Shown here piece by piece: positions 2,218 to 50,931 of a DNA stretch of 64,000 nucleotides. The DNA is taken from contig NC_088340.1 in NCBI RefSeq assembly GCF_036884655.1, positions 25,615,001 through 25,679,000 on the forward strand, read 5' to 3'. Each line of letters opens with the position of its first letter. The first letter of the stretch is position 1. The notes under the pieces are model-generated. The model searched no databases. It had not been told where the DNA came from and saw only the letters and a list, made by a program, of their open reading frames with translations. The translations under genes and the position numbers were made by a program. Origin of the DNA: Musa acuminata AAA Group (Eukaryota; Streptophyta; Magnoliopsida; Zingiberales; Musaceae).

Positions 2218-3130
2218 TGCTAGTCATAGGTGCCCAGCAAGCCAATCACGTGAGTGATGGCACGTGTGACTTGATACAGAATCTTTTTGCTTATTATATT
2301 TTGGCGTATATCACTTTATAACTATTGCATAAATGCATATATATATTGTGATGTCCTTGGATTTGTGCAATGGGAATCGGATCGTGATGAGATCACGATA
2401 ATGAGATCGATTCACCTTTAAACACATATCCTAAATAATCCCGGTCATAGGTTACTCGAGAAGGACATCGTGATAACCGGATAGACTGGTGTGCTGTATA
2501 CCCGTCCATATGATGGATGCAGTTGGTCTCATAGTTGCTCATGTAGGGACACTAGGGATACAGTACAGGTGCTCATTGGAGAATGAGTTCACTGATTGAT
2601 CCGCTTACGGAATGCTGGATGGTTGATGATGCCTTATTGTCAGACAGCGATTCCGTAGTCCTAGTGGTGTATCTGGTCCTTAGACTTGAGACACCAAGGA
2701 TGTCCTGTATGAGTGCTCCACTCTTTGATACCAGACTTATAGGTTTGGCTGTTCCCAGATCTAGTACAGCTGGTCATTGGGAGTGGTAGTCGACCTTACG
2801 AGGGCTATTGAGTGTCGATAGAGGATCATCCACTCTCGGTATCATGAGAGGAATATCCCATGTGTTCTTGCTCAGACAAATCCCTGGCCAGGGTCATTCG
2901 GGTTGAGAGAGAAAGAGTTCTCCGGGAGAATCCGATTAGAGCGAGACTCGAGTAGAAACCGTATGGGTCTGACAGCACCATGCTCGATATACGGTCTCTG
3001 GGATATTAGATGGATGAGGGACTATAGGTACATGGTAACTGAGGACAGACAGGTCCAATGGATTGGATTCCCCTGTATCGTCTGGGGATTACGGCGTAGT
3101 GGCCTAGTACTTCCGTAGTCGATGAGTCGA

Positions 3131-3158
3131 GTGAATTATTACAGAGATAATAATTCAC
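3131..3158. other. Perfect 11-bp inverted repeat in the copia LTR
   Basis: GTGAATTATTA (3131-3141), a 6-base spacer, then TAATAATTCAC (3148-3158). The hairpin is kept in the young LTRs. It is recognisable with a changed spacer or a few arm changes in the old fragments near 33477, 34986 and 38507. Confidence 0.75.
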
Positions 3159-3352
3159 TTAGTTAGAAGGAGTTCTGACAGGTATGACTCACGGCCAGCT
3201 CGATATTGGGCCTAGAGGGTCACACACATATGGTAGGCATTGCGATGAGTAGAGGTTCGGATATGAGATATCCGACGGAGCCCTTGTCTTATTGGATGCA
3301 GATCCAATACCCACTAGGGAAAAGGACCCATTAGGGTTTAGACACGGGATCT

Positions 3353-3360
3353 CTATAAAT
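3353..3360 (+). promoter_or_regulatory. TATA box of the copia D 5' LTR
   Basis: CTCTATAAATAGG lies about 355 bp before the LTR end. The same box is found in every related LTR in the window. Confidence 0.75.
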
Positions 3361-3714
3361 AGGAGGGATTCACAGCCTCATAGGCTAGAGTCTTTGCTTG
3401 CCCTTCCTATTCTCCTCTCCCTCTCCACCTCAGAGTAGGCCTGGAGTTTTGAGGAGCGTCGTCGTAACCCTGCTGTGTGGATCACCGCTAGAGAGGAGGA
3501 CGCTTGACCTCCTTCACCCTCTCCTGAGGATCTGCAAGGAAACAGGGATATACGATCTCCCTAGGTAACACAATCTCTATACGCAGTTTTGTGTTTTGCG
3601 GATTTTGCGCACCAATCTTCGCACGACGACGAACATCTTTTTGGGAATCGGGGATTTTTGTTTTCTTGTTCTTCCGCTGCGCATATGATGTCGCCCCCCA
3701 TGATTTCCCAACAG

Positions 3715-3726
3715 TGGTATCAGAGC
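3715..3726 (+). other. Primer binding site of copia D (tRNA-iMet type)
   Basis: TGGTATCAGAGC begins two bases after the LTR end. It is the usual complement of the initiator methionine tRNA 3' end in plant LTR retrotransposons. Confidence 0.9.
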
Positions 3727-5565
3727 TAGGTTGTTCATGCGAATGATTGGTTTTTGAACTGCGTGTGTTGTGTTTAGGAAGAATATTGACGTCAAAATCG
3801 TTGACGCAAAAGCAAGGAAGGGCAGCAACAGTTGCTGCCCTCGATCTGCATGCCTGCAGCCAGCCGCAGCCGCAGCCAGGCAGCACAGCGCCGGCGCATA
3901 CGCAAGCGCTGTGCTTGCAGTAGCCGGCCGGCGATCTGCTTGCAGCAGGCTTGCGGCCGGCGGGGCTGGGAGCCCGCTCGGTAGAAGCGCCTGCGGCCAC
4001 TGAGCCCGCGGGCAGAGGCGCCGCGGGGCAGCAGCGCGGGCTGAGGCACCGCAGGGCAGCGGCGCCTGTGGCCGCTGCTCCCACGGGCAAAAACCCCGCA
4101 GGGGCGGCCGCCAGCGAGACAGCACCACCTGCGGGCGCTGACTCGCGGGCAGAACCGCCCGCGAAGGCGGCGGCGCCCGCGGGGGCGCCCACCTGCAGCG
4201 GCAGCGACCCCAGCGGGCGTGCCACCTGCAGGCGAGGGCAGTGCCCTCGCCCTCGCCGCACAGGCCGCCGCCAGCAGGGTGGCGGCGGCGGCGGCGCAGC
4301 AGCGAAAAGGGGAAAGGGTATTAGGGTTTTCTACGCAAAAGACAGTTTTGCCCCTCGGAATTTGAGAAATTCCAGTTTCTGTCTTTTGTCCAAATTACGA
4401 AAATACCCTTAGGAATTGAGAAATTCCCTATATATCCCTGATTTTAGAAAATATTAATTAATTAAAAGGTTTAGTTGATTATTATTTTTATTATCTAGTA
4501 GTCCTACATAATGACGATTATTTATACATGTGATGTATGATGAGTGGACGGATGATCATGGACCGTGTGATGTGTGTACTTGTGATTATTATTATTGAGG
4601 TCTGCGAACCTCCATTATATTTCTCGTTTATTGTCGGGCCTGCGTGCCTATGATTAGGTTGTAATCACATGAGGAGGCGCAGCGGGAGCGTGGAAGCCAT
4701 AGCGGGACTCACGAGACGGACGATCGTGATGCATGAAGATGCATCAAGATGTCGACGGAACCAACGAGGACGAGATGGACGATCACAAGGCATGGAGATG
4801 CACCGTTGCACACATAGATCTTGATGTGAGTGATTAGGCCTACTGGCTCGGGCCTAATCATATTAGGTTGTGGTCCATGATCATCTGGTGTGATTGCTTA
4901 TACACATACTAGATATGTATATATATTTGCATGCGATATAGATATATATTAAATATGTACATGTGTGACATGTCATATTAGGAGACCAAATCATAGAAAC
5001 ATCTCTCGATAATATTAAGTCGGTAAACGTGAGGCAATTAGATTGACCCACGTGGCCTTCCATCGTTATGAGTAGGAACCGAATCCCGGTGTAGGTTGAG
5101 TTGGTCGAGTCCCTCGAGACTCACCTATATCGCGATTCGTTATCTTGCTTACGACATAGAGATGTCACCGGTGACCTGAGGGCATGATATGCTTGGTCGA
5201 GTCCCTCGAGGGTATATCATCAAATCAGACTCATCTTGTAACGAAGGTGTTGACTTAACCGAGCATCATGGTTGGTCGAGTCCCTCGAGGCCATGGTGAT
5301 TCGGAGGCCGAACAGGACGGGAATCACAAGGAGTTGTGATCGGCAAGAGTTGTCTACCTTTTAGGCTTAGTGTGATTGGTCGAGTCCCTCGAGGTTACAC
5401 TAAGACGCTGATTGGATCCTGATCCCCACTAGAAGTCTGCCGGAGACTTCCGTTTCACGTGCTGAGGGTGTCGCGTGACTCGTTAGTAAAATAGTGGGAG
5501 CATATTAAGATAGAAGTCCATATCTTGATTGTTTATTTCTTGCAAAATCTGCATGTTATTCATTT
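3727..5565 (+). other. Long 5' leader of copia D
   Basis: About 1.8 kb separates the primer site from gag. Positions 3833-4310 are extremely GC-rich (simple Ala/Gly/Pro/Arg codon-like repeats such as GGCGCCCGCGGG), and open frames there exist on both strands only because stop codons are rare. The rest is AT-rich and ends with the four-hairpin array at 5091-5404. I see no gene in it. Confidence 0.8.
5091..5404 (+). other. Four-hairpin array with an invariant apical motif
   Basis: The motif TTGGTCGAGTCCCTCGAG occurs four times (5101, 5193, 5272, 5376), 79-104 bp apart. Its core can fold as TCGAG-TCC-CTCGA. Each copy is flanked by a different pair of complementary arms: 5091-5100 with 5120-5128 (one bulge), 5184-5192 with 5212-5220, 5259-5271 with 5291-5304, and 5366-5375 with 5395-5404. 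The arms differ between units but pair within each unit, with several G-T pairs. The array sits between primer site and gag, where packaging, dimerisation or translation signals are expected; its role is unknown. Confidence 0.8.
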
Positions 5566-8500
5566 TTGCTACATCTTTATTTTCAGAAAATGTCGCTTTC
5601 AAATCCCTTACGTGGCATACTTGATGTCAACCGCCTCACTGGTCCAAATTATACGGACTGGCTCCGTAACTTGAGAATTGTTCTCACAGCGGAGAATATC
5701 GTGTACGTCCTTGATACAGTGATGCCTACGCCCGAAGAAGGGGCAAGCGAGGATGAGATCGCTCGCTACGTGAAGTACATTGATGACTCCACTCTTGCTC
5801 AGTGCTATATGTTGGGCTCTATGACTCCAGAGTTATAGAGACAACATGAAAAGATGGATGCCAGATCCATTCTCCTACATGTCCGTAAATTGTTTGAGGA
5901 ACAGGGAAGGACTCAACGATATGAGATATCCAAGAGCCTTTTCCGCGCTAGGATGACTGAGGGGACACCGGTTCAGAACCATGTCCTAAAGATGATTGAG
6001 TGGATAGAGAAACTCACAGGTCTAGGAATGGTCCTAGAGGATAACTTGTGTGTGGACATTGTGCTTCAGTCCCTACCAGATTCCTTTTCACAGTTCATAA
6101 TGAACTTTAATATGAACAAGCTTGAGGTGACTCTCCCAGAGCTCCTCAATATGTTGAGGGAGGCAGAGAGTACTATTAAGAAAGAGAAGCCAGTTCTCTA
6201 CACTGGTGAGACCAGAAAGAAAAGGAAAGCAGAAAGGTCCCTTAAGAAGGGAAAGGGCAAGGGCAAACAAGGTAAAGCAAAGGTTGCTAAGAAAGACCCA
6301 ACAAAGGACAAAGGCCAGTGCTTCCACTGTGGTAAAGATGGGCACTGGAAGAGAAACTGCAAAGAGTACCTTGCAGAAAGGGCGAAACAAAAGCTTGATG
6401 AAGCTTCAGGTACATTCATGATCGGTCTCCATTTGTCAGACTCTTATGATAACACATGGGTATTAGATACCGGTAGTGCTTATCATATATGTAATTCGTT
6501 GCAGGTTCTGGCAAGGCCTAGGAGACTAGAGAGAGGCGAGATGGACCTCAAGATGGGTAATGGAGCAAAAGTTGCTGTTTTAGCTGTTGGCGAGGTCGCC
6601 CTACATCTGCCTAGTGGAGCTTTTATTGCATTAGATGCATGTTATTTTGTTCCTTCTATTATCAAAAACATTATCTCCATTTCATGTTTAACAGTTAGTG
6701 GATATAAATTTGTTTTTGAGAACAATGGTTGTTCGATATTATTAGATGATAAGATCATCACGAAAGGAACATTGCATAATGGTTTATTTATGTTAGACAC
6801 CACTCCACATATCATGAATATAAATATGTCCAAAAAGGAAACGAGATGAGTTGAACAGTGCATACCTGTGGCATTGTAGGCTAGGTCACATCCATGAAAG
6901 AAGGATTCAAAAGTTGCTAAATGATGGATATCTAGATCCATTCGACTATGTGTCATATACAACTTGTGAGCCTTGCATTCGTGGAAAACTGACCAACTCT
7001 CCATTTAGTGGAACTGGAGAGAGAGCCACTGAGTTGTTAGAACTCATACATAGTGATGTATGTGGACCCATGTCAACTCATGCCATTGGAGGTTACTCCT
7101 ACTTCATTACATTTACTGATGATTTCTCAAGGTATGGATATGTGTACTTAATGAAGTACAAGTCCGAGGCCTTTGAGAAATTCAGAGAGTATAAGAATGA
7201 GGTGGAGAACCAGACTGGAAAGAGTATCAAAACTCTTCGATCAGATCGAGGAGGTGAGTACTTAAGTACAGAGTTTACTCACTTCCTCAAGGACCATGGG
7301 ATATTATCCCAATGGACACCTCCTTATACACCTCAGCTCAATGGTGTCTCTAAAAGAAGAAATCATACATTATTAGATATGGTACGGTCCATGATGAGTT
7401 TCGCTGACCTACCCATCTCATTCTGGGGATATGCCCTAGAAATCGCAGCTTACCTTCTGAACAGAGTTCCAACTAAGTCGGTGGTGTCTACACCATATGA
7501 GATATGGAAAGGGAAGAAGCCTGATCTTAAAATAGTTAAGATTTGGGGCTGCTCTGCCCATGTTAAAAGACACAACCCCGATAAGTTAGAATCAAGGACA
7601 GGGCGATGTAAATTTGTGGGATACCCCAAGGAAACTTGTGGGTATTACTTCTATCATCTCGAGGACCAAAAGGTCTTTGTAGCTAAGAGAGCAGTGTTCC
7701 TTGAGAAGGAACACATTCTTGACGGAGACAGTGGGAGAATGATAGAATTGAGCGAGGTTGGAGAACCAAGCTCAAGCACCACTCTACAGCCCGAGTCTGT
7801 TCAGGTATCTAATACACAAGTTTCAACTTTACGCAGGTCTGATAGAGTATCCCATCCTCCTGAGAGATATGTGGGATATATTAGAGCAGAGGATGTAGAG
7901 GATATTGATCCTCAGACCTACGAGGAGGCTATTATGAGTATAGACTCCGGGAAGTGGAAAGAAGCCATGAATTCTGAGATGGATTCTATGTACTCCAATA
8001 AGGTTTGGAACCTAGTTGATGCACCCGAAGGTATTGTACCCATCGGTTGCAAGTGGATCTTTAAGAAAAAGATCGGAGTAGATGGAAAGGTAGAGACCTA
8101 TAAAGCAAGGCTAGTGGCTAAGGGGTATCGTCAAAGGCAAGGTGTTGACTACGACGAAACTTTCTCACCCGTAGCAATGCTAAAATCCATCAGAATTCTA
8201 TTGGCTATTGCAGCACACTATGATTATGAGATCTAGCAGATGGATGTGAAAACCACATTCCTCAACGGGAACCTGGAGGAGGAGGTGTATATGATGCAAC
8301 CTGAGGGATTCGTGTCCAAGAACTGCCCAGATAAGGTGTGTAGGTTGCTTAGATCCATTTATGGACTAAAGCAAGCTTCCCGAAGTTGGAACATAAGATT
8401 TGATGAGTCAATCAGATCTTATGACTTCGTTAAGAACGAAGATGAGCCTTGTGTGTACAGGAAGGTAAGTGGGAGCGCTATCACCTTTTTGGTGTTATAT

Positions 8501-9152
8501 GTGGATGACATCCTCATCATTGGGAATGATGTAGGAATGCTATCCACAGTAAAGACTTGGTTATCTAGACACTTCTCCATAAAGGACTTAGGGGAAGCAT
8601 CCTATATCTTGGGGATTAGAATCTATAGAGATAGATCCAAGAGGATGCTTGGCTTGTCCCAGTCCAGGTACATAGAAATCATTGTCAAAATGTTTGGCAT
8701 TGAAAATTCTAAGAAAGGGCGAACATGGATATGATACCTTATGCCTTAGCAATATGGTATATCATGTATGCCATGCTATGTACTAGGCCTGATATAGCGC
8801 ATGCTCTGAGTGTCACGAGCAGGTATCAGGCGGATCCAGGCTTGGAGCACTGGAAAGCAGTAAAGTGTATCCTTAAGTACTTGAGAAGGACTAAGGATTT
8901 TTTACTAGTATATGGAGGTAATAGCCTTAAGGTTGAAGGCTTCACTGACTCAAGTTTTCAGTCTGATGTCGATGATAGCAAGTCGAATTCAGGGAATGTG
9001 TACACCTTGAATGGAGGAGCAGTGTGCTAGAAGAGTTCCAAGCAAGATACCACTGCTAACTCGACCACAGAGGCGGAGTACATTGCTGCATCGGATGCAG
9101 CAAAGGAGGGAGTCTGGGTGAAGAAGTTCATCACAGATTTGGGAGTCGATAC

Positions 9153-10645
9153 TGTTGGGAAATCATGGGGGCGACATCATATGCGCAGCGGAAGAACAAG
9201 AAAACAAAAATCCCCGATTCCCAAAAAGATGTTCGTCGTCGTGCGAAGATTGGTGCGCAAAATCCGCAAAACACAAAACTGCGTATAGAGATTGTGTTAC
9301 CTAGGGAGATCGTATATCCCTGTTTCCTTGCAGATCCTCAGGAGAGGGTGAAGGAGGTCAAGCGTCCTCCTCTCTAGCGGTGATCCACACAGCAGGGTTG
9401 CGACGACGCTCCTCAAAACTCCAGGCCTACTCTGAGGTGGAGAGGGAGAGGAGAATAGGAAGGGCAAGCAAAGACTCTAGCCTATGAGGCTGTGAATCCC
9501 TCCTATTTATAGAGATCCCGTGTCAAAACCCTAATGGGTCCTTTCCCTAGTGGGTATTGGATCTGCATCCAATAAGACAAGGGCTCCGTCGGATATCTCA
9601 TATCCGAACCTCTACTCATCGCAATGCCTACCATATGTGTGTGACCCTCTAGGCCCAATATCGAGCTGGCCGTGAGTCATACCTGTCAGAACTCCTTCTA
9701 ACTAAGTGAATTATTATCTCTGTAATAATTCACTCGACTCATCGACTACGGAAGTACTAGGCCACTACGCCGTAGTCCCCAGACGATACAGGGGAATCCA
9801 ATCCATTGGACCTGTCTGTCCTCAGTTACCATGTACCTATAGTCCCTCATCCATCTAATATCCCAGAGACCGAATATCGAGCATGGTGCTGTCAGACCCA
9901 TACGGTTTCTACTCGAGTCTCGCTCTAATCGGATTCTCCCGGAGAACTCTTTCTCTCTCAACCCGAATGACCCTGGCCAGGGATTTGTCTGAGCAAGAAC
10001 ACATGGGATATTCCTTTCATGATACCGAGAGTGGATGATCCTCTATCGACACTCAATAGCCCTCGTAAGGTCGACTACCACTCCCAATGACCAGCTGTAC
10101 TAGATCTGGGAACAGCCAAACCTATAAGTCTGGTATCAAAGAGTGGAGCACTCATACAGGACATCCTTGGTGTCTCAAGTCTAAGAACCAGATACACCAC
10201 TAGGACTACGGAATCGTTGTCTGACAATAAGGCATCATCAACCATCCAGCATTCCGTAAGCGGATCAATCAGTGAACTCATTCTCCAATGAGCACCTGTA
10301 CTGTATCCCTAGTGTCCCTACACGAGCAGCTATGAGACCAGCTGCATCTATCATATGGACGGGTATACAGCACACCAGTCTATCCGGTTATCACGATGTC
10401 CCTCTCGAGTAACCTATGACCGGGATTATTTAGGATATGTGTTTAAAGGTGAATCGATCTCATTATCGTGATCTCATCACGATCCGATTCCCATTGCACA
10501 AATCCAAGGACATCACAATACATATGCATTTATGCAATAGTTATAAAGTGATATACGCCAAAAATATAATAAGCAAAAAGATTCTGTATCAAGTCACACG
10601 TGCCATCACTCACGTGATTGGCTTGCTGGGCACTTATGACTAGCA
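9153..10645 (-). repeat. 3' LTR of copia E
   Basis: On the plus strand it starts TGTTGGGAAATC and ends GACTAGCA; 1493 bp. The polypurine tract of E (reverse complement of ATCTCCCACTTGA) abuts it at 10646-10658. Confidence 0.95.
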
Positions 10646-10719
10646 ATCTCCCACTTGACCTAAAGCCAATCACCTATGTGTCTGATCCCCATCAGACCCC
10701 TGTGACGCTCAAAGACAAT

Positions 10720-13700
10720 CTAAGACAATGGCTTTGTTAGTGGATCTGCAATGTTATCTTCGGATGGAACTCTTTCCACTGCTACATCTCCTCGGGTCAC
10801 GATCTCTCTGATAAGGTGGAACCTCCTCAAAACATGCTTAGATTTCTGATGAGACCTAGGTTCCTTCGCTTGAGCAATTGCCCCGTTGTTGTCGCAATAT
10901 AGGGAAATCGGCTCCTCACTATCCGGCACGACTCCCAAATCTGTGATGAACTTCTTCAACCAGACTCCCTCCTTTGCTGCATCTGATGCAGCAATGTACT
11001 CCGCCTCTGTGGTCGAGTCAACAGTGGTATCTTGCTTGGAACTCTTCCAGCACACTGCTCCTCCATTCAAGGTGTACACATACCCTGAATTCGACTTGCT
11101 ATCATCGACATCAGACTGAAAACTTGAGTCAGTGTAGCCTTCAACCTTAAGGCTATTACCTCCATATACTAGTAAAAGATCCTTAGTCCTTCTCAAGTAC
11201 TTAAGGATACACTTTACTGCTTTCCAGTGCTCCAAGCCTGGATCCGCCTGATACCTGCTCGTGACACTCAGAGCATGCGCTATATCAGGCCTAGTACATA
11301 GCATGGCATACATGATAGACCCTATTGCTGAGGCATAAGGTATCATATCCATGTTCGCCCTTTCTTCTGGAGTCTTTGGGGACATACTCGTAGAAAGCGA
11401 TATCCCATGTCTCATCGGTATGAGACCTCTTTTGGAATTTTCCATGCCAAACCTTTTGACAATAGTTTCTATGTACCTGGACTGGGACAAGCCAAGCATC
11501 CTTTTGGATCTATCTCTATAGATTCTAATCCCCAAGATATAAGATGCTTCTCCTAAGTCCTTCATGGAGAAGTGTCTAGATAACCAAGCCTTTATTGTGG
11601 ATAGCATTCCTATGTCATTCCCAATGATGAGGATGTCATCCACATATAACACCAAAAAGCTAATAGCGCTCCCACTTACCTTTCTGTATACACAAGGCTC
11701 ATCTTCGTTCTTAACGAAGTCATAAGATCTGATTGCCTCATCAAATCTTATGTTCCAACTTCGGGAAGCTTGCTTTAGTCCATAAATGGATCTAAGCAAC
11801 CTACACACCTTATCTGGGCAGTTCTTGGACACGAATCCCTCAGGTTGCATCATATACACCTCCTCCTCCAGGTTCCCATTGAGGAATGCGGTTTTCACAT
11901 CCATCTGCCAGATCTCATAATCATAGTGTGCTGCAATAGCCAATAGAATTCTGATGGATTTTAGCATTGCTACGGGTGAGAAAGTTTCGTCGTAGTCAAC
12001 ACCTTGCCTTTGACGATACCCCTTAGCCACTAGCCTTGCTTTATAGGTCTCTACCTTTCCATCTACTCCGATCTTTTTCTTAAAGATCCACTTGCAACCG
12101 ATGGGTACAATACCTTCGGGTGCATCAACTAGGTTCCAAACCTTATTGGAGTACATAGAATCCATCTTAGAATTCATGGCTTCTTTCCACTTCCCGGAGT
12201 CTATACTCATAATAGCCTCCTCGTAGGTCTGAGGATCAATATCCTCTACATCCTCTGCTCTAATATGTCCCACATATCTCTCAGGAGGATGGGATACTCT
12301 ATCAGACCTGCGTAAAGTTGAAACTTGTGTATTAGATACCTGAACAGACTCGGGCTGTAGAGTGGTGCTTGAGCTTGGTTCTCCAACCTCGCTCAATTCT
12401 ATCATTCTCCCACTGTCTCCGTCAAGAATGTGTTCCTTCTCAAGGAACACTGCTCTCTTAGCTACAAAGACCTTTTGGTCCTCGAGATGATAGAAGTAAT
12501 ACCCACAAGTTTCCTTGGGGTATCCCACAAATTTACATCGCCCTGTCCTTGATTCTAACTTATCGGGGTTGTGTCTTTTAACATGGGCAGAGCAGCCCCA
12601 AATCTTAACTACTTTAAGATCAGGCTTCTTCCCTTTCCATATCTCATATGGTGTAGACACCACCGACTTAGTTGGAACTCTGTTCAGAAGGTAAGCTGCG
12701 GTTTCTAGGGCATATCCCCAGAATGAGATGGGTAGGTCAGCGAAACTCATCATGGACCGTACCATATCTAATAATGTACGATTTCTCCTTTCAGAGACAC
12801 CATTGAGCTGAGGTGTATAAGGAGGTGTCCATTGGGATAATATCCCATGGTCCTTGAGGAAGTGAGTAAACTCTGTACTTAAGTACTCACCTCCTCGATC
12901 TGATCGAAGAGTTTTGATACTCTTTCCAGTCTGGTTCTCCACCTCATTCTTATACTCTCTGAATTTCTCAAAGGCCTCGGACTTGTACTTCATTAAGTAC
13001 ATATATCCATACCTTGAGAAATCATCAGTAAATGTAATGAAGTAGGAGTAACCTCCAATGGCATGAGTTGACATGGGTCCACATACATCACTATGTATGA
13101 GTTCCAACAACTCAGTGGCTCTCTCTCCAGTTCCACTAAATGGAGAGTTGGTCAGTTTTCCACGAATGCAAGGCTCACAAGTTGCATATGACACATAGTC
13201 GAATGGATCTAGATATCCATCATTTAGCAACTTTTGAATCCTTCTTTCATGGATGTGACCTAGCCTACAATGCCACAGGTATGCACTGTTCAACTCATCT
13301 CGTTTCCTTTTGGACATATTTATATTCATGATATGTGGAGTGGTGTCTAACATAAATAAACCATTATGCAATGTTCCTTTCGTGATGATCTTATCATCTA
13401 ATAATATCGAACAACCATTGTTCTCAAAAACAAATTTATATCCACTAACTGTTAAACATGAAATGGAGATAATGTTTTTGATAATAGAAGGAACAAAATA
13501 ACATGCATCTAATGCAATAAAAGCTCCACTAGGCAGATGTAGGGCGACCTCGCCAACAGCTAAAACAGCAACTTTTGCTCCATTACCCATCTTGAGGTCC
13601 ATCTCGCCTCTCTCTAGTCTCCTAGGCCTTGCCAGAACCTGCAACGAATTACATATATGATAAGCACTACCGGTATCTAATACCCATGTGTTATCATAAG

Positions 13701-14577
13701 AGTCTGACAAATGGAGACCGATCATGAATGTACCTGAAGCTTCATCAAGCTTTTGTTTCGCCCTTTCTGCAAGGTACTCTTTGCAGTTTCTCTTCCAGTG
13801 CCCATCTTTACCACAGTGGAAGCACTGGCCTTTGTCCTTTGTTGGGTCTTTCTTAGCAACCTTTGCTTTACCTCGTTTGCCCTTGCCCTTTCCCTTCTTA
13901 AGGGACCTTTCTACTTTCCTTTTCTTTCTGGTCTCACCAGTGTAGAGAACTGGCTTCTCTTTCTTAATAGTACTCTCTGCCTCCCTCAACATATTGAGGA
14001 GCTCTGGGAGAGTCACCTCAAGCTTGTTCATATTAAAGTTCATTATGAACTGTGAAAAGGAATCTGGTAGGGACTGAAGCACAATGTCCACACACAAGTT
14101 ATCCTCTAGGACCATTCCTAGACCTGTGAGTTTCTCTATCCACTCAATCATCTTTAGGACATGGTTCTGAACCGGTGTCCCCTCAGTCATCCTAGCGCGG
14201 AAAAGGCTCTTGGATATCTCATATCGTTGAGTCCTTCCCTGTTCCTCAAACAATTTACGGACATGTAGGAGAATGGATCTGGCATCCATCTTTTCATGTT
14301 GTCTCTGTAACTCTGGAGTCATAGAGCCCAACATATAGTACTGAGCAAGAGTGGAGTCATCAATGTACTTCACGTAGCGAGCGATCTCATCCTCGCTTGC
14401 CCCTTCTTCGGGCGTAGGCATCACTGTATCAAGGACGTACACGATTTTCTCCGCTGTGAGAACAATTCTCAAGTTACGGAGCCAATCCGTATAATTTGGA
14501 CCAGTGAGGCGGTTGACATCAAGTATGCCACGTAAGGGATTTGAAAGCGACATTTTCTGAAAATAAAGATGTAGCAA
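10720..14577 (-). CDS. Copia gag-pol polyprotein of element E
   Basis: A single frame of 1285 residues encodes the whole retrotransposon polyprotein, normally cut by its own protease. Approximate order: gag (to about 240), CCHC knuckle [14 protein letters not shown] (about 252), protease LDTGSAYH (about 300), GAG-pre-integrase with CEPC (430-480), integrase with a DD35E triad ([22 protein letters not shown]; about 495-595), reverse transcriptase with [11 protein letters not shown] (about 890) and YVDD (about 978), and RNase H with a TDSS motif (from about 1140). A second ATG at 14553 (MSLSNPLRG) is an equally good start. The stop after TKPLS is TAG where copia D reads CAG and runs on for 20 more residues, so E probably lost a short C-terminal tail. 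All catalytic motifs look present; activity is not shown. Confidence 0.93.
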
Positions 14578-16427
14578 AAATGAATAACATGCAGATTTTG
14601 CAAGAAATAAACTATCAAGATATGGACTTCTATCTTAATATGCTCCCACTATTTTACTAACGAGTCACGCGACACCCTCAGCACGTGAAACGGAAGTCTC
14701 CGGCAGACTTCTAGTGGGGATCAGGATCCAATCAGCGTCTTAGTGTAACCTCGAGGGACTCGACCAATCACACTAAGCCTAAAAGGTAGACAACTCTTGC
14801 CGATCACAACTCCTTGTGATTCCCGTCCTGTTCGGCCTCCGAATCACCATGGCCTCGAGGGACTCGACCAACCATGATGCTCGGTTAAGTCAACACCTTC
14901 GTTACAAGATGAGTCTGATTTGATGATATACCCTCGAGGGACTCGACCAAGCATATCATGCCCTCAGGTCACCGGTGACATCTCTATGTCGTAAGCAAGA
15001 TAGCGAATCGCGATATAGGTGAGTCTCGAGGGACTCGACCAACTCAACCTACACCGGGATTCGGTTCCTACTCATAACGATGGAAGGCCACGTGGGTCAA
15101 TCTAATTGCCTCACGTTTACCGACTTAATATTATCGAGAGATGTTTTATATGATTTGGTCTCCTAATATGACATGTCACACATATACATATTTAATATAT
15201 ATCTACATCGCATGCAAATATATATACATATCTAGTATGTGTATAAGCAATCACACCAGATGATCATGGACCACAACCTAATATGATTAGGCCCGAGCCA
15301 GTAGGCCTAATCACTCACATTAAGATCTATGTGTGCAACGGTACATCTCCATGCCCTGTGATCATCCATCTCGTCCTCGTCGGTTCCGTCGACATCTTGA
15401 TGCATCTCCATGCATCACGATCGTCCGTCTCGTGGGTCCCGCTGTCGCATCCACGCTCCCGCTGTGCCTCCTCATGTGATTACAACTTAATTATAGACAC
15501 GCAGGCCCGACAATAAACGAGAAATATAATGGAGGTTCGCAGACCTCAATAATAATAATCACAAGTACACACATCACACGGTCCATGATCATCCGTCCAC
15601 ACATCATACATCACATGTATAAATAATCATCATCATGTAGGACTACTAGATAATAATAAAAAATAATAATCAACTAAACTTTTTAATTAATTAATATTTT
15701 TCTGAAATCAGGGACATGTAGGGAATTTCTCAATTCCTAAGGGTATTTTCGTAATTTGGACAAAAGACAGAAACTGGAATTTCTCAAATTCGAGGGGCAA
15801 AACTGTCTTTTGCCCAGAAAACCCTAATATCCTACTGCCCTTTGCTGCTGCCGTTGCCGCCGCCACCCTGCTGGCGGCGGCCTGTGCGGCGAGGGGCGGG
15901 GCGCTGCCCTCGCCTGAAGCGGCACGCCCGCTGGCGGCGCTGCCGCTGCAGGTGGGCGCCCCCGCGGGCGTCGCCACCTCCGCGGGCAGTTCTGCCGGCG
16001 AGGCAGCGCCCGCAGGCGGTGCTGCCTCGCTGGCGGCCGCCCCTGCGGGGTTTTTGCCCGTGGGAGCAGCGGCCACAGGCGCCGCTGCCCTGCGGTGCCT
16101 CAGCCCGCGCTGCTGCCCCGCGGCGCCTCTACCCGCGGGCTCAGCGGCCGCAGGCGCCTCTACCCGCGGGCTGCCAGCCCCGCCGGCCGCAAGCCTGCTG
16201 CAAGCAGATCGCCGGCCGGCTGCTGCAGGCACAGCGCTTGCGCATGCGCCGGCGCTGTGCTGCCTGGCTGCGGCTGCGGCTGCCGCTGCAGGTGGCTGCA
16301 GGCATGCAGATCGAGGGCAGCAACTGTTGCTGCCCTTCCTCGCTTTTGCGTCAACGATTTTGACGTCAAAATTCTTCCTAAACACAACACACGCAGTTCA
16401 AAACCAATCATTCGCACGAACAACCTG
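14578..16427 (-). other. Leader of copia E
   Basis: It is the same as the leader of D: the four-hairpin array, an AT-rich stretch, then a GC-rich block (about 15840-16325) next to the primer site. The GC-rich block differs from D by small in-frame-like repeat expansions. No gene is seen. Confidence 0.8.
14739..15055 (-). other. Four-hairpin array in the copia E leader
   Basis: On the minus strand the same four stem-loops as in D lie at about 14739-14777, 14839-14884, 14923-14959 and 15014-15053, each with the apical TTGGTCGAGTCCCTCGAG. Confidence 0.8.
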
Positions 16428-16439
16428 GCTCTGATACCA
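16428..16439 (-). other. Primer binding site of copia E
   Basis: GCTCTGATACCA on the plus strand is the reverse complement of the iMet-type site; one base separates it from the 5' LTR. Confidence 0.9.
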
Positions 16440-16440
16440 C

Positions 16441-17942
16441 TGTTGGGAAATCATGGGGGCGACATCATATGCGCAGCGGAAGAACAAGAAAACAAAAATC
16501 CCCGATTCCCAAAAAGATGTTCGTCGTCGTGCGAAGATTGGTGCGCAAAATCCGCAAAACACAAAACTGCGTATAGAGATTGTGTTACCTAGGGAGATCG
16601 TATATCCCTGTTTCCTTGCAGATCCTCAGGAGAGGGTGAAGGAGGTCAAGCGTCCTCCTCTCTAGCGGTGATCCACACAGCAGGGTTGCGACGACGCTCC
16701 TCAAAACTCCAGGCCTACTCTGAGGTGGAGAGGGAGAGGAGAATAGGAAGGGCAAGCAAAGACTCTAGCCTATGAGGCTGTGAATCCCTCCTATTTATAG
16801 AGATCCCGTGTCAAAACCCTAATGGGTCCTTTCCCTAGTGGGTATTGGATCTGCATCCAATAAGACAAGGGCTCCGTCGGATATCTCATATCCGAACCTC
16901 TACTCATCGCAATGCCTACCATATGTGTGTGACCCTCTAGGCCCAATATCGAGCTGGCCGTGAGTCATACCTGTCAGAACTCCTTCTAACTAAGTGAATT
17001 ATTATCTCTGTAATAATTCACTCGACTCATCGACTACGGAAGTACTAGGCCACTACGCCGTAGTCTCCGTAGTCCCCAGACGATACAGGGGAATCCAATC
17101 CATTGGACCTGTCTGTCCTCAGTTACCATGTACCTATAGTCCCTCATCCATCTAATATCCCAGAGACCGTATATCGAGCATGGTGCTGTCAGACCCATAC
17201 GGTTTCTACTCGAGTCTCGCTCTAATCGGATTCTCCCGGAGAACTCTTTCTCTCTCAACCCGAATGACCCTGGCCAGGGATTTGTCTGAGCAAGAACACA
17301 TGGGATATTCCTCTCATGATACCGAGAGTGGATGATCCTCTATCGACACTCAATAGCCCTCGTAAGGTCGACTACCACTCCCAATGACCAGCTGTACTAG
17401 ATCTGGGAACAGCCAAACCTATAAGTCTGGTATCAAAGAGTGGAGCACTCATACAGGACATCCTTGGTGTCTCAAGTCTAAGAACCAAATACACCACTAG
17501 GACTACGGAATCGTTGTCTGACAATAAGGCATCATCAACCATCCAGCATTCCGTAAGCGGATCAATCAGTGAACTCATTCTCCAATGAGCACTTGTACTG
17601 TATCCCTAGTGTCCCTACACGAGCAGCTATGAGACCAGCTGCATCCATCATATGGACGGGTATACAGCACACCAGCCTATCCGGTTATCACGATGTCCCT
17701 CTCGAGTAACCTATGACCGGGATTATTTAGGATATGTGTTTAAAGGTGAATCGATCTCATTATCGTGATCTCATCACGATCCGATTCCCATTGCACAAAT
17801 CCAAGGACATCACAATACATATACATTTATGCAATAGTTATAAAGTGATATACGCCAAAAATATAATAAGCAAAAAGATTCTGTATCAAGTCACACGTGC
17901 CATCACTCACGTGATTGGCTTGCTGGGCACTTATGACTAGCA
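16441..17942 (-). repeat. 5' LTR of copia E
   Basis: It is 1502 bp long, the partner of 9153-10645, with an extra 9 bp from a local TCCGTAGTC-type duplication near 17060. Target duplication GATAC follows at 17943. Confidence 0.95.
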
Positions 17943-18205
17943 GATACAGATAGCGACAAGTCGACTTCCTTATATTGCGACAACTATGGGGTGATTACTC
18001 AAATAAGGGAACCCGGGTCTCATCAGAAGTGTTCTGAGGAGGTTCCAGCTTATCAGAGAGATCGTAACCCGATGATATGTAGCAGTGGAAAGAGTTCCAT
18101 CCGAAGATAACATTGCAGATCCACTGACAAAGCCGTTGTCTCAGATTGTCTTTGAGCGTCACAAGAGTCTGATGGGGATCAAACACATAGGTGATTGGCT
18201 TTAGG

Positions 18206-18218
18206 TCAAGTGGGAGAT
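18206..18218 (+). other. Polypurine tract of copia D
   Basis: TCAAGTGGGAGAT directly precedes the 3' LTR start TGCTAG at 18219, the expected site for plus-strand priming. Confidence 0.8.
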
Positions 18219-19714
18219 TGCTAGTCATAGGTGCCCAGCAAGCCAATCACGTGAGTGATGGCACGTGTGACTTGATACAGAATCTTTTTGCTTATTATAT
18301 TTTGGCGTATATCACTTTATAACTATTGCATAAATGCATATATATATTGTGATGTCCTTGGATTTGTGCAATGGGAATCGGATCGTGATGAGATCACGAT
18401 AATGAGATCGATTCACCTTTAAACACATATCCTAAATAATCCCGGTCATAGGTTACTCGAGAAGGACATCGTGATAACCGGATAGACTGGTGTGCTGTAT
18501 ACCCGTCCATATGATGGATGCAGTTGGTCTCATAGCTGCTCGTGTAGGGACACTAGGGATACAGTACAGGTGCTCATTGGAGAATGAGTTCACTGATTGA
18601 TCCGCTTACGGAATGCTGGATGGTTGATGATGCCTTATTGTCAGACAGCGATTCCGTAGTCCTAGTGGTGTATCTGGTCCTTAGACTTGAGACACCAAGG
18701 ATGTCCTGTATGAGTGCTCCACTCTTTGATACCAGACTTATAGGTTTGGCTGTTCCCAGATCTAGTACAGCTGGTCATTGGGAGTGGTAGTCGACCTTAC
18801 GAGGGCTATTGAGTGTCGATAGAGGATCATCCACTCTCGGTATCATGAGAGGAATATCCCATGTGTTCTTGCTCAGACAAATCCCTGGCCAGGGTCATTC
18901 GGGTTGAGAGAGAAAGAGTTCTCCGGGAGAATCCGATTAGAGCGAGACTCAAGTAGAAACCGTATGGGTCTGACAACACCATGCTCGATATACGGTCTCT
19001 GGGATATTAGATGGATGAGGGACTATAGGTACATGGTAACTGAGGACAGACAGGTCCAATGGATTGGATTCCCCTGTATCGTCTGGGGACTACGGCGTAG
19101 TGGCCTAGTACTTCCGTAGTCGATGAGTCGAGTGAATTATTACAGAGATAATAATTCACTTAGTTAGAAGGAGTTCTGACAGGTATGACTCACGGCCAGC
19201 TCGATATTGGGCCTAGAGGGTCACACACATATGGTAGGCATTGCGATGAGTAGAGGTTCGGATATGAGATATCCGACGGAGCCCTTGTCTTATTGGATGC
19301 AGATCCAATACCCACTAGGGAAAAGGACCCATTAGGGTTTAGACACGGGATCTCTATAAATAGGAGGGATTCACAGCCTCATAGGCTAGAGTCTTTGCTT
19401 GCCCTTCCTATTCTCCTCTCCCTCTCCACCTTAGAGTAGGCCTGGAGTTTTGAGGAGCGTCGTCGCAACCCTGCTGTGTGGATCACCGCTAGAGAGGAGG
19501 ACGCTTGACCTCCTTCACCCTCTCCTGAGGATCTGCAAGGAAACAGGGATATACGATCTCCCTAGGTAACACAATCTCTATACGCAGTTTTGTGTTTTGC
19601 GGATTTTGCGCACCAATCTTCGCACGACGACGAACATCTTTTTGGGAATCGGGGATTTTTGTTTTCTTGTTCTTCCGCTGCGCATATGATGTCGCCCCCC
19701 ATGATTTCCCAACA
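18219..19714 (+). repeat. 3' LTR of copia D
   Basis: It is 1496 bp long, nearly identical to 2218-3713, and followed by the target duplication GGTGT. Confidence 0.95.
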
Positions 19715-19719
19715 GGTGT

Positions 19720-47567: not shown

Positions 47568-47652
47568 CTTGCAAGCAAGGATTGATAAACCAAAGCGTAC
47601 CACTCGGTATGGGCGGTATGCACTAGTCTGACAGAGGACCTATACGAGTGGT

Positions 47653-47962
47653 TGTTAGGATCCCTTTATTTTCTAAGCTTTTGAATAATGTTTTGTTGAG
47701 TTTTTTTAGTTTGGTAAGAGTCGGATAGGGGTTTATTTAATATTTATTTATTATCAAGAGTCCAAGTCCCGGTGGATTTTGTGTGGAATTCTATAAATAG
47801 AGATGTATCTGTTTCTTTTAACCTATCAATGAAATATTATCTAGTCTTTTGACAAACCCTAGGAGGCCGATCCCCTCGAAGTGATCAAGGAGGTCGATCC
47901 CCTCGAAGCAATCATCCATTTTTTCCCTCTTCTTCTACGATAAAACCCCAGGGGTCTTATCA
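47653..47962 (+). repeat. 5' LTR of G3
   Basis: 310 bp, from TGTTAGGATCCC to GGTCTTATCA, with TATAAATAG near 47792. It is followed by the primer site at 47965-47976. Confidence 0.9.
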
Positions 47963-47976
47963 TTTGGTATCAGAGC

Positions 47977-50187: not shown

Positions 50188-50505
50188 TGTTTCTTGGAAT
50201 TTTTCTAAACTAATCATGAAGTTTTTTATTAATGGAAAGCAGGTGATCTTAAAGGGAAGACATGGAAGTAAGGTCACAACTATCACTAGCTATCGGATGG
50301 AGAGAGTTCTTCAGGAGACTACAATGACTACTACACCGAAAGGTCGACCTATTGCTTACACTATCAAGGAATGGAGACCGCACTTACTTGATCAATGGGT
50401 TGTGATGCGCTGCAAATACCCTGTGATTGAAGTGCTGAAAGAGAAACTCCCCGAGTTTGATGTTGCTCAGCCTTGAGGACAAAATTGATTTGAAGAGGGA
50501 GGAAT

Positions 50506-50816
50506 TGTTAGGATCCCTTTATTTTCTGAGCTTTTGAATAATGTTTTGTTGAGTTTATTTAGTTCGGTAAGAATCGGATAGGGGTTTATTTAATATTTTA
50601 TTTATTATTAAGAGTTCAAGTCCTGGTGGACTCTAGGTGGAACTCTATAAATAGAGATGTATCTGTTTCTTTTAACCTATCAATAAAATATTATCTATTC
50701 TTTTGACAAACCCTAGAAGGTCGATCCCCTCGAAGTGATCAAGGAGGTCGATCTCCTCAAAGCAATCATCCATTTTCTTCCTCTTCTTTTACGATAAAAC
50801 CCTAGGGGTCTTATCA
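50506..50816 (+). repeat. 3' LTR of G3
   Basis: 311 bp, partner of 47653-47962, followed by GTGGT. Confidence 0.9.
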
Positions 50817-50931
50817 GTGGTACATAGGTACACCCCAGTGTACCATCGTATGTTGATAAGCTCGGTAAGTATTGTATCGACAGCCGGTCGGTACATCGGA
50901 ATGGACCGGTAATACGAACCATGCTTGCAAG

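Follow-up and report, generated by a model that had tools for sequence, protein, structure and literature searches.

The untranslated leader of a banana Ty1/copia retrotransposon contains four hairpins that carry one identical 18-nt tip on four unlike stems and lie together in a predicted structured RNA domain of 366 nt. Tentatively, and with somewhat less than even confidence, we read this domain as a multivalent packaging or Gag-recognition signal, that is, as a cis-acting structured RNA that would present four copies of one candidate protein-recognition hairpin. The window analyzed here is a stretch of 64,000 nt and forms part of contig 14 of a 1.53-Gb assembly.

Host elements and the four hairpin units

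We found two copies of one Ty1/copia family in the window, one nested in the other, and took their ends and target duplications from the flanking sequence. Element 1 lies on the plus strand at 2218-19714, as delimited by self-comparison and its flanks, between target duplications GGTGT (2213-2217 and 19715-19719); by the same means its 5′ LTR was placed at 2218-3713 (plus strand, TG...CA ends, TATA at 3354), and its second LTR lies at about 18219-19714 on the same strand. Element 2 (9153-17942, minus strand, target duplication GATAC in its flanks) sits inside element 1 in the opposite orientation and contains a gag-pol open frame of 1285 codons (10720-14577, minus strand) with Retrotran_gag_2, integrase core and RVT_2 domains. 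The Gag motif C-X2-C-X4-H-X4-C is present, and zf-CCHC scores 20.6 bits, just under the Pfam cut-off of 20.8. By its LTRs, its primer site, the order gag-integrase-RT and the copia Pfam domains, the host element is a Ty1/copia LTR retrotransposon. The primer binding site TGGTATCAGAGC, which we take to be of the tRNA-iMet type, is located at 3715-3726 on the plus strand in element 1 and at 16439 on the minus strand in element 2, where it adjoins that element's first repeat. Four gag-pol queries searched against the window gave nothing past 19.7 kb among the matches listed. A small LTR element is probably marked by two 319-bp repeats of 92% similarity at 47652-47969 and 50505-50822, with TGGTATCAGAGC present at 47965; a sequence within it differs from the tip core at three positions, a match that chance could give.

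The untranslated leader of element 1 spans 3715-5589 on the plus strand (1.9 kb) ahead of the gag ATG at 5590, and 37 upstream ATGs occur between 3380 and 5590, none of them within 3380-3684. A GC-rich part of this leader, 3740-4419, folds strongly on both strands, the most divergent part among the compared copies is 3900-4300, and a 14-nt perfect inverted repeat (4551-4564 and 4872-4885, 307 nt apart) lies upstream of the hairpin domain. Measured from the primer site, the hairpins themselves lie 1.4 kb downstream, and about 190 nt separate them from gag.

The 18-mer TTGGTCGAGTCCCTCGAG occurs four times exactly on the plus strand, at 5101, 5193, 5272 and 5376 (span 5101-5393), with tip-to-tip spacings of 92, 79 and 104. 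It occurs four times on the minus strand as well, at 14750-15042, in the matching places of element 2, which shows one difference from element 1 over 5080-5410. These eight sites are all the matches in the window at three mismatches or fewer, compared to 0.01 expected (100 shuffles). All 18 tip columns are identical across the units (18/18), and the flanking 12-nt arms share on average 32% identity, which is near chance. On the plus strand, unit 1 (5089-5130, tip 5101-5118) has an outer stem of 13 bp with one bulged base, unit 2 (5184-5220, tip 5193-5210) one of 11 bp, unit 3 (5264-5298, tip 5272-5289) one of 10 bp and unit 4 (5366-5404, tip 5376-5393) one of 12 bp. The predicted fold is common to all four and consists of the outer stem, a 5′-side GG bulge and an inner UCGAG/CUCGA stem of five pairs capped by a UCC loop, with three G-U pairs in every unit.

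We observed that the arms pair well with their own partners: the cognate duplexes of units 1-4 reach -16.5, -8.6, -18.2 and -12.1 kcal/mol, compared to -1.6 to -7.0 kcal/mol for the 12 non-cognate ones. The unit energies sum to -82.8, against -49.1 in 1000 arm shuffles (sd 5.0, minimum -69.5). Unit by unit, 3, 63, 0 and 14 of the 1000 shuffles matched units 1-4, so that this test lends little weight to unit 2 taken alone, which 63 shuffles equalled. Dinucleotide shuffles gave z values of -3.8, -3.0, -3.7 and -4.0 for units 1-4, with 0, 2, 0 and 1 of 200 shuffles as good. Since the arms are at chance identity between units yet complementary within them, simple duplication cannot produce them. 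Taken together, these results bear out the preliminary description of this DNA, which had claimed a tip present four times in the leader and able to pair with itself, arms complementary within but unrelated between units, several G-T pairs, and a location between the primer site and gag.

The same description had also suggested dimerisation through CTCGAG, a claim that the predicted folds weaken. In that case the tips of two genomic RNAs would open and pair with each other via the self-complementary UCGAG...CUCGA, which we consider distinctly unlikely. The tip is indeed self-complementary, and the homodimer of each unit exceeds two monomers in computed stability (e.g. -39.8 versus 2 x -17.8 for unit 4), but this is expected of any hairpin, and for six of six mixed-unit dimers the computation favors the separate monomers. 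A kissing loop is ruled against because the palindrome sits in predicted stem pairs, with an apical loop of only UCC, in all four units.

Extent and strand of the predicted RNA domain

The extent first proposed for the element, 5091..5404, takes in the units but forms part of a larger predicted fold at about 5060-5425. When this region is folded, as the preliminary description had recommended, all four units form in a plus-strand model of 366 nt and 145 bp at -146.7 kcal/mol (z -5.3); 100 shuffles averaged -116.2 (sd 5.8), none reaching that value. In the model, a closing helix of 9 bp (5060-5069/5238-5247, plus strand) encloses units 1 and 2, a basal helix P1 (5070-5077/5143-5150, plus strand) forms the base of unit 1, units 3 and 4 have separate stems of their own, and a 7-bp hairpin with a GGAG tetraloop (5323-5340, plus strand) stands between them.

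For a wider view of folding, we scanned 3380 to 6099 in 200-nt windows on both strands with 40 shuffles each. Among these windows 5060-5259 is conspicuous for its z of -7.4 in the sense direction, against -1.3 in antisense. Over units 3 and 4 the values are modest (5180-5379: z -2.2 sense, -1.0 antisense; 5300-5499: -2.9 and -2.6, respectively), and the GC-rich 4100-4419 also has low z values, on both strands. Searching Rfam with 3700-5700 up to an E value of 5 yielded 11 matches, all below the gathering score and none of them in 5060-5425.

The whole domain folds at -146.7 kcal/mol in sense versus -113.1 kcal/mol in antisense direction, and each unit also folds worse in antisense. On the basis of these computed energies and of the G-U pairs, the predicted four-hairpin structure belongs to the sense RNA. 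The strand difference also bears on a DNA-level explanation, in which the repeats would be, for example, sites of a host DNA-binding protein; the gypsy insulator of Drosophila is such a DNA-level repeat of binding sites. Exact 18-bp copies containing CTCGAG would suit this explanation, but complementary arms would be superfluous for DNA sites, and the 12 G-U pairs of the predicted stems are A-C mismatches on the other strand, so we regard it as highly improbable.

Tip and pairing among copies of the family

The exact tip is present 22,503 times in the 1.53-Gb assembly (10,953 on the plus and 11,550 on the minus strand) compared to two times for the reversed control; divided by four, this corresponds to about 5,600 sets. 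The first 100 of the 22,503 places, all on contig 1, often form sets spaced 92, 79 and 104, with some tips missing. A purine stands two bases before the tip in all four known contexts, and a pyrimidine was found there in 90 of the 22,503 places; this screen, which is blind to new contexts with a purine at that position, gave no sign of a fifth context.

For comparison we used 105 leaders (103 fetched loci, the window and element 2), of which 97 aligned over at least 180 nt, with 8 dropped, and 87 were distinct. The sample is biased: 21 loci were picked for an exact tip on contig 1 and lean to elements with tips lost (L119 and L123, obtained in the same search for the tip, are duplicates of two of these loci), and 30 loci were chosen by similarity to 5020-5440, one of these being the window itself. 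A less biased set, picked neither by tip nor by domain similarity, comprises 40 distinct rows, namely 22 (of 30) from a sister subfamily and 18 chosen by gag (20 picked from 150). One leader, L209, aligns with the hairpin region of the window through its last 197 nt alone; its first part looks LTR-like by eye, which suggests a rearranged copy.

We observed no common variant in the tips. Among the 87 copies, some of them chosen for the exact tip, common variants occupy 0 of 72 tip positions compared to 19 of 294 positions elsewhere (p 0.014); the corresponding counts in the less biased set of 40 are 0 of 72 compared to 30, 18 or 12 of 294, depending on the threshold (p 0.001, 0.017 and 0.069). 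CpG sites decay fast in plants; the tips hold such sites and yet are without common variants. Singly decayed tips are common, the exact tip being kept in 58/84, 67/85, 55/84 and 56/77 distinct copies for units 1-4. Between units, the inner stem is no less constant than the bulge and the loop, while the outer stems are free, so that the sequence of the tip and not its shape alone appears to matter. From this sequence comparison, the constant tip appears to be the mark of a candidate binding site.

Variants at paired sites were divided into those keeping and those breaking the pair, with the commonest base as reference. In the 87 distinct copies the ratio of keeping to breaking variants is 32:84 for singletons, 38:43 for variants in 2-5 copies, 23:22 for 6-15 and 12:0 for more than 15 copies. 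With the window as reference, the last class becomes 11:1 (p 1.5e-4 versus variants in 1-5 copies). The difference between common and rare variants is partly due to transversions, which occur among the rare ones and usually break pairs; for transitions alone we obtained 11:0 versus 68:40 (p 0.009). In the less biased 40 copies, common variants (at least 10 copies) compare to rare ones as 11:2 to 80:111 (p 0.003), and for transitions as 11:2 to 77:52, with p 0.067 at this threshold of 10, 0.46 at a threshold of 8 and 0.032 at a threshold of 12.

Changes on both sides that keep the pairing were counted in 60 cells compared to 25 in 300 shuffles (sd 4.7, maximum 40), a comparison that is inflated by the relatedness of the copies; with partners slid by 1-3 positions the count was 5-41 cells. 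Joint change was seen at p <0.05 in 5 of the 35 structure pairs in which both columns vary, and two of these survive correction for 35 tests. One is 5071-5149 in the basal helix P1, where A-U is replaced by G-C in 20 of 84 distinct copies and by G-U in six (top 0.7% of corrected mutual information); the other is 5372-5398 in unit 4, with a both-sided change in 3 of 78 distinct copies (p 0.001, top 1.8%). In the GGAG hairpin, pair 5327-5336 changed on both sides in 6 of 83 distinct copies (p 0.007) and ranks only in the top 13%; genome-wide, 279 copies have T at 5327, and 15 of the first 100 listed have A at 5336, a one-sided hand count that carries no claim. The model fares less well in the lower extension of unit 1, where 60 of 84 distinct copies have a mismatch at 5083-5136.

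Selection on structure and tip had been claimed from the outset, with covariation across copies and arms that pair in other members named as its checks. Common variants at paired sites keep the pairs (12:0), and the lower extension of unit 1 is not conserved. The youth and uniformity of the family leave little room for classical covariation, which is thin apart from the two pairs that survive correction. The strand specificity, the pairing-keeping common variants and the clean tips lend moderate support to an RNA fold maintained by selection, but not proof.

To judge by the leaders compared here, the family is indeed young and uniform: of 20 leaders chosen by gag, 18 reach at least 96.6% in the alignment, one of these 18 along just half of its length. 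The sister subfamily is more distant, its majority base differing from the window at 37 of 413 positions in 3300-3714. At least one tip with three mismatches or fewer was found in 12 of 13 sister loci on the plus strand, and all four tips stand in register in 7 of 13 (one-strand scan); the aligned sister rows show the units, some of them decayed or interrupted. The hairpins are still recognisable in sister copies in which the ATG aligned with the gag start is kept in only 6 of 19 scored cases (L180-L206), and the gag of this subfamily may start elsewhere or depend on other copies.

These data bear on three further explanations. The units could be the neutral residue of one ancestral repeat, alike only through the recent spread of the family, as the close identity of the gag-chosen leaders would allow; we regard this as very unlikely, given that arms of chance identity are complementary within units and that the sister subfamily, in spite of its 37 differences, still shows the hairpins and their spacing. 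According to a second explanation, which we hold to be rather unlikely, the domain would control translation as a ribosome shunt or internal entry element before gag. Structured leaders of plant pararetroviruses act as such shunt or entry elements, and here 37 ATGs from 3380 precede gag and the domain ends about 165 nt before the gag ATG. However, shunting requires a stem and not four identical tips, and the hairpins outlast the gag-start ATG in the sister copies (6/19).

It is also unlikely, in our view, that the tips serve RNA export or retention by recruiting a host factor that would carry unspliced genomic RNA out of the nucleus, in which case the units would belong to a leader intron that is spliced out of the gag mRNA. 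By an ad hoc scoring, the highest value for an acceptor in 3700-6400 falls on TTTATTTTCAG at 5586, its end 4 nt upstream of the gag ATG, and a donor-like TAG|GTAACA occurs at 3565, in the LTR end and before the first ATG, but this donor has only the fourth best score. Young copies keep the AG in 28 of 29 and the GT in 23 of 23 scored cases, compared to 14 of 19 and 14 of 18 in sister copies. The region 3380-3684 holds 1-6 ATGs in each of the 16 scored sister copies (0 and 1 in two young copies scored), which speaks against export, as does the spliced junction at the 5586 acceptor, for which the one exact pattern tried had 0 genomic matches; the weight of this last result is limited because spliced RNA without the primer site would rarely be copied. 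In favor of export, a structured leader is reportedly needed for the export of plant pararetrovirus mRNA, as stated in a recent review (PMC12786077).

Possible recognition of the tips and comparison with known systems

Packaging, dimerisation and translation had been named in the preliminary description as functions of this part of a leader; packaging now fits best, dimerisation is weakened, and translation stays a rival together with RNA export. By its predicted fold and the variant tests in one genome, 5060-5425 is a conserved structured RNA in the 5′ leader, as is characteristic of packaging signals. If the domain is a packaging or Gag-recognition signal, its most likely reader would be the Gag of the element itself, with the unpaired GG bulge and the UCC loop as possible contacts of the CCHC knuckle, and four sites might allow a cooperative choice of genomic RNA for packaging. 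With only the tip being read, the stems would be under no constraint to be alike. Unlike stems could moreover keep the repeats from mispairing with each other, in line with the stem-swap energies, in which non-cognate arms pair poorly, and might protect them from deletion by template switching in reverse transcription. Conservation alone does not single out Gag as the ligand.

We searched for the tip and its host outside the family. The exact tip gave 0 matches in viral_contigs, and no relative was found there with the gag-pol protein P0001 and the alignment A1. At least 118 stretches of genome_contigs, from bacteria and archaea, match the 15-mer core and were discarded, as about 480 would be expected by chance in 257 Gb by our estimate. 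Three gag ends (P0012, P0029 and P0105) compared with the same genome had nearly uniform identities of 55-58%, 48-50% and 40-42%, respectively, at the 150 places scored for each; 20 of 20 loci fetched from one gag-end search belong to the hairpin-bearing family itself. Other families with the hairpins were not reached among the 150 scored places per gag query, a result that does not deny their existence elsewhere in the genome. Four copies of one site close to gag, unseen outside the family in the searched data, suggest that the element recognises its own RNA.

It is possible, if doubtful, that plant LTR retrotransposons possess here a multivalent RNA recognition domain of a new class, in which four identical candidate protein-binding tips on unlike stems would let the coat protein count four sites while the copies would neither mispair nor be lost by template switching. 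The constant tip on unlike stems also points to a way in which repeats can be maintained in an RNA through reverse transcription, and the 366-nt domain with its four identical tips, of which one genome has 22,503 exact copies, is a defined RNA for study. Little seems to be known about the way in which plant retrotransposons select their own RNA for packaging. A 2025 review of their life cycle discusses packaging via capping, RNA pools and granules, and its main text has 0 occurrences of 'hairpin', 'stem-loop', 'secondary structure' or 'dimeriz' (PMC12786077). For barley BARE, likewise a plant copia element, conserved dimerisation and packaging signals are referred to in a paper whose main text does not contain the word 'hairpin', so that their form is not comparable to ours (PMC3735527). 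In literature titles and the starts of abstracts, no array of one tip on four stems was found among the matches listed, and a literature search for the core GGTCGAGTCCCTCGAG returned 0 papers. To our knowledge, no equal arrangement of one tip on four unlike stems is known. As a kind, the domain is a structured retroelement leader; its four-hairpin arrangement is real, and its function as a recognition signal is putative.

Repeated hairpins are known from retroviral packaging signals, such as the double GACG hairpins of gammaretroviruses and SL1-SL3 of HIV-1. These resemble the banana units in their place in the leader before gag, in the presence of several hairpins and in unpaired guanines at the tip, and SL3 of HIV-1 has a GGAG loop, as does the hairpin at 5323-5340 beside the units. 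In contrast to the retroviral hairpins, the banana leader has four copies of one 18-nt tip including bulge and inner stem, the stems are unrelated, the host is a Ty1/copia element, and the role is inferred from sequence. For yeast Ty1, palindromes have been proposed in the formation of dimers (PMC4974528), and the TIPIRT is a structured 5′ RNA with a pseudoknot and two kissing hairpins with complementary 7-nt apices, for which a role in packaging has been proposed (PMC5454406). Both TIPIRT and the banana domain are structured 5′ RNAs of copia-group elements; the banana domain differs in its four identical tips, its 3-nt loop and its position about 1.4 kb from the primer site.
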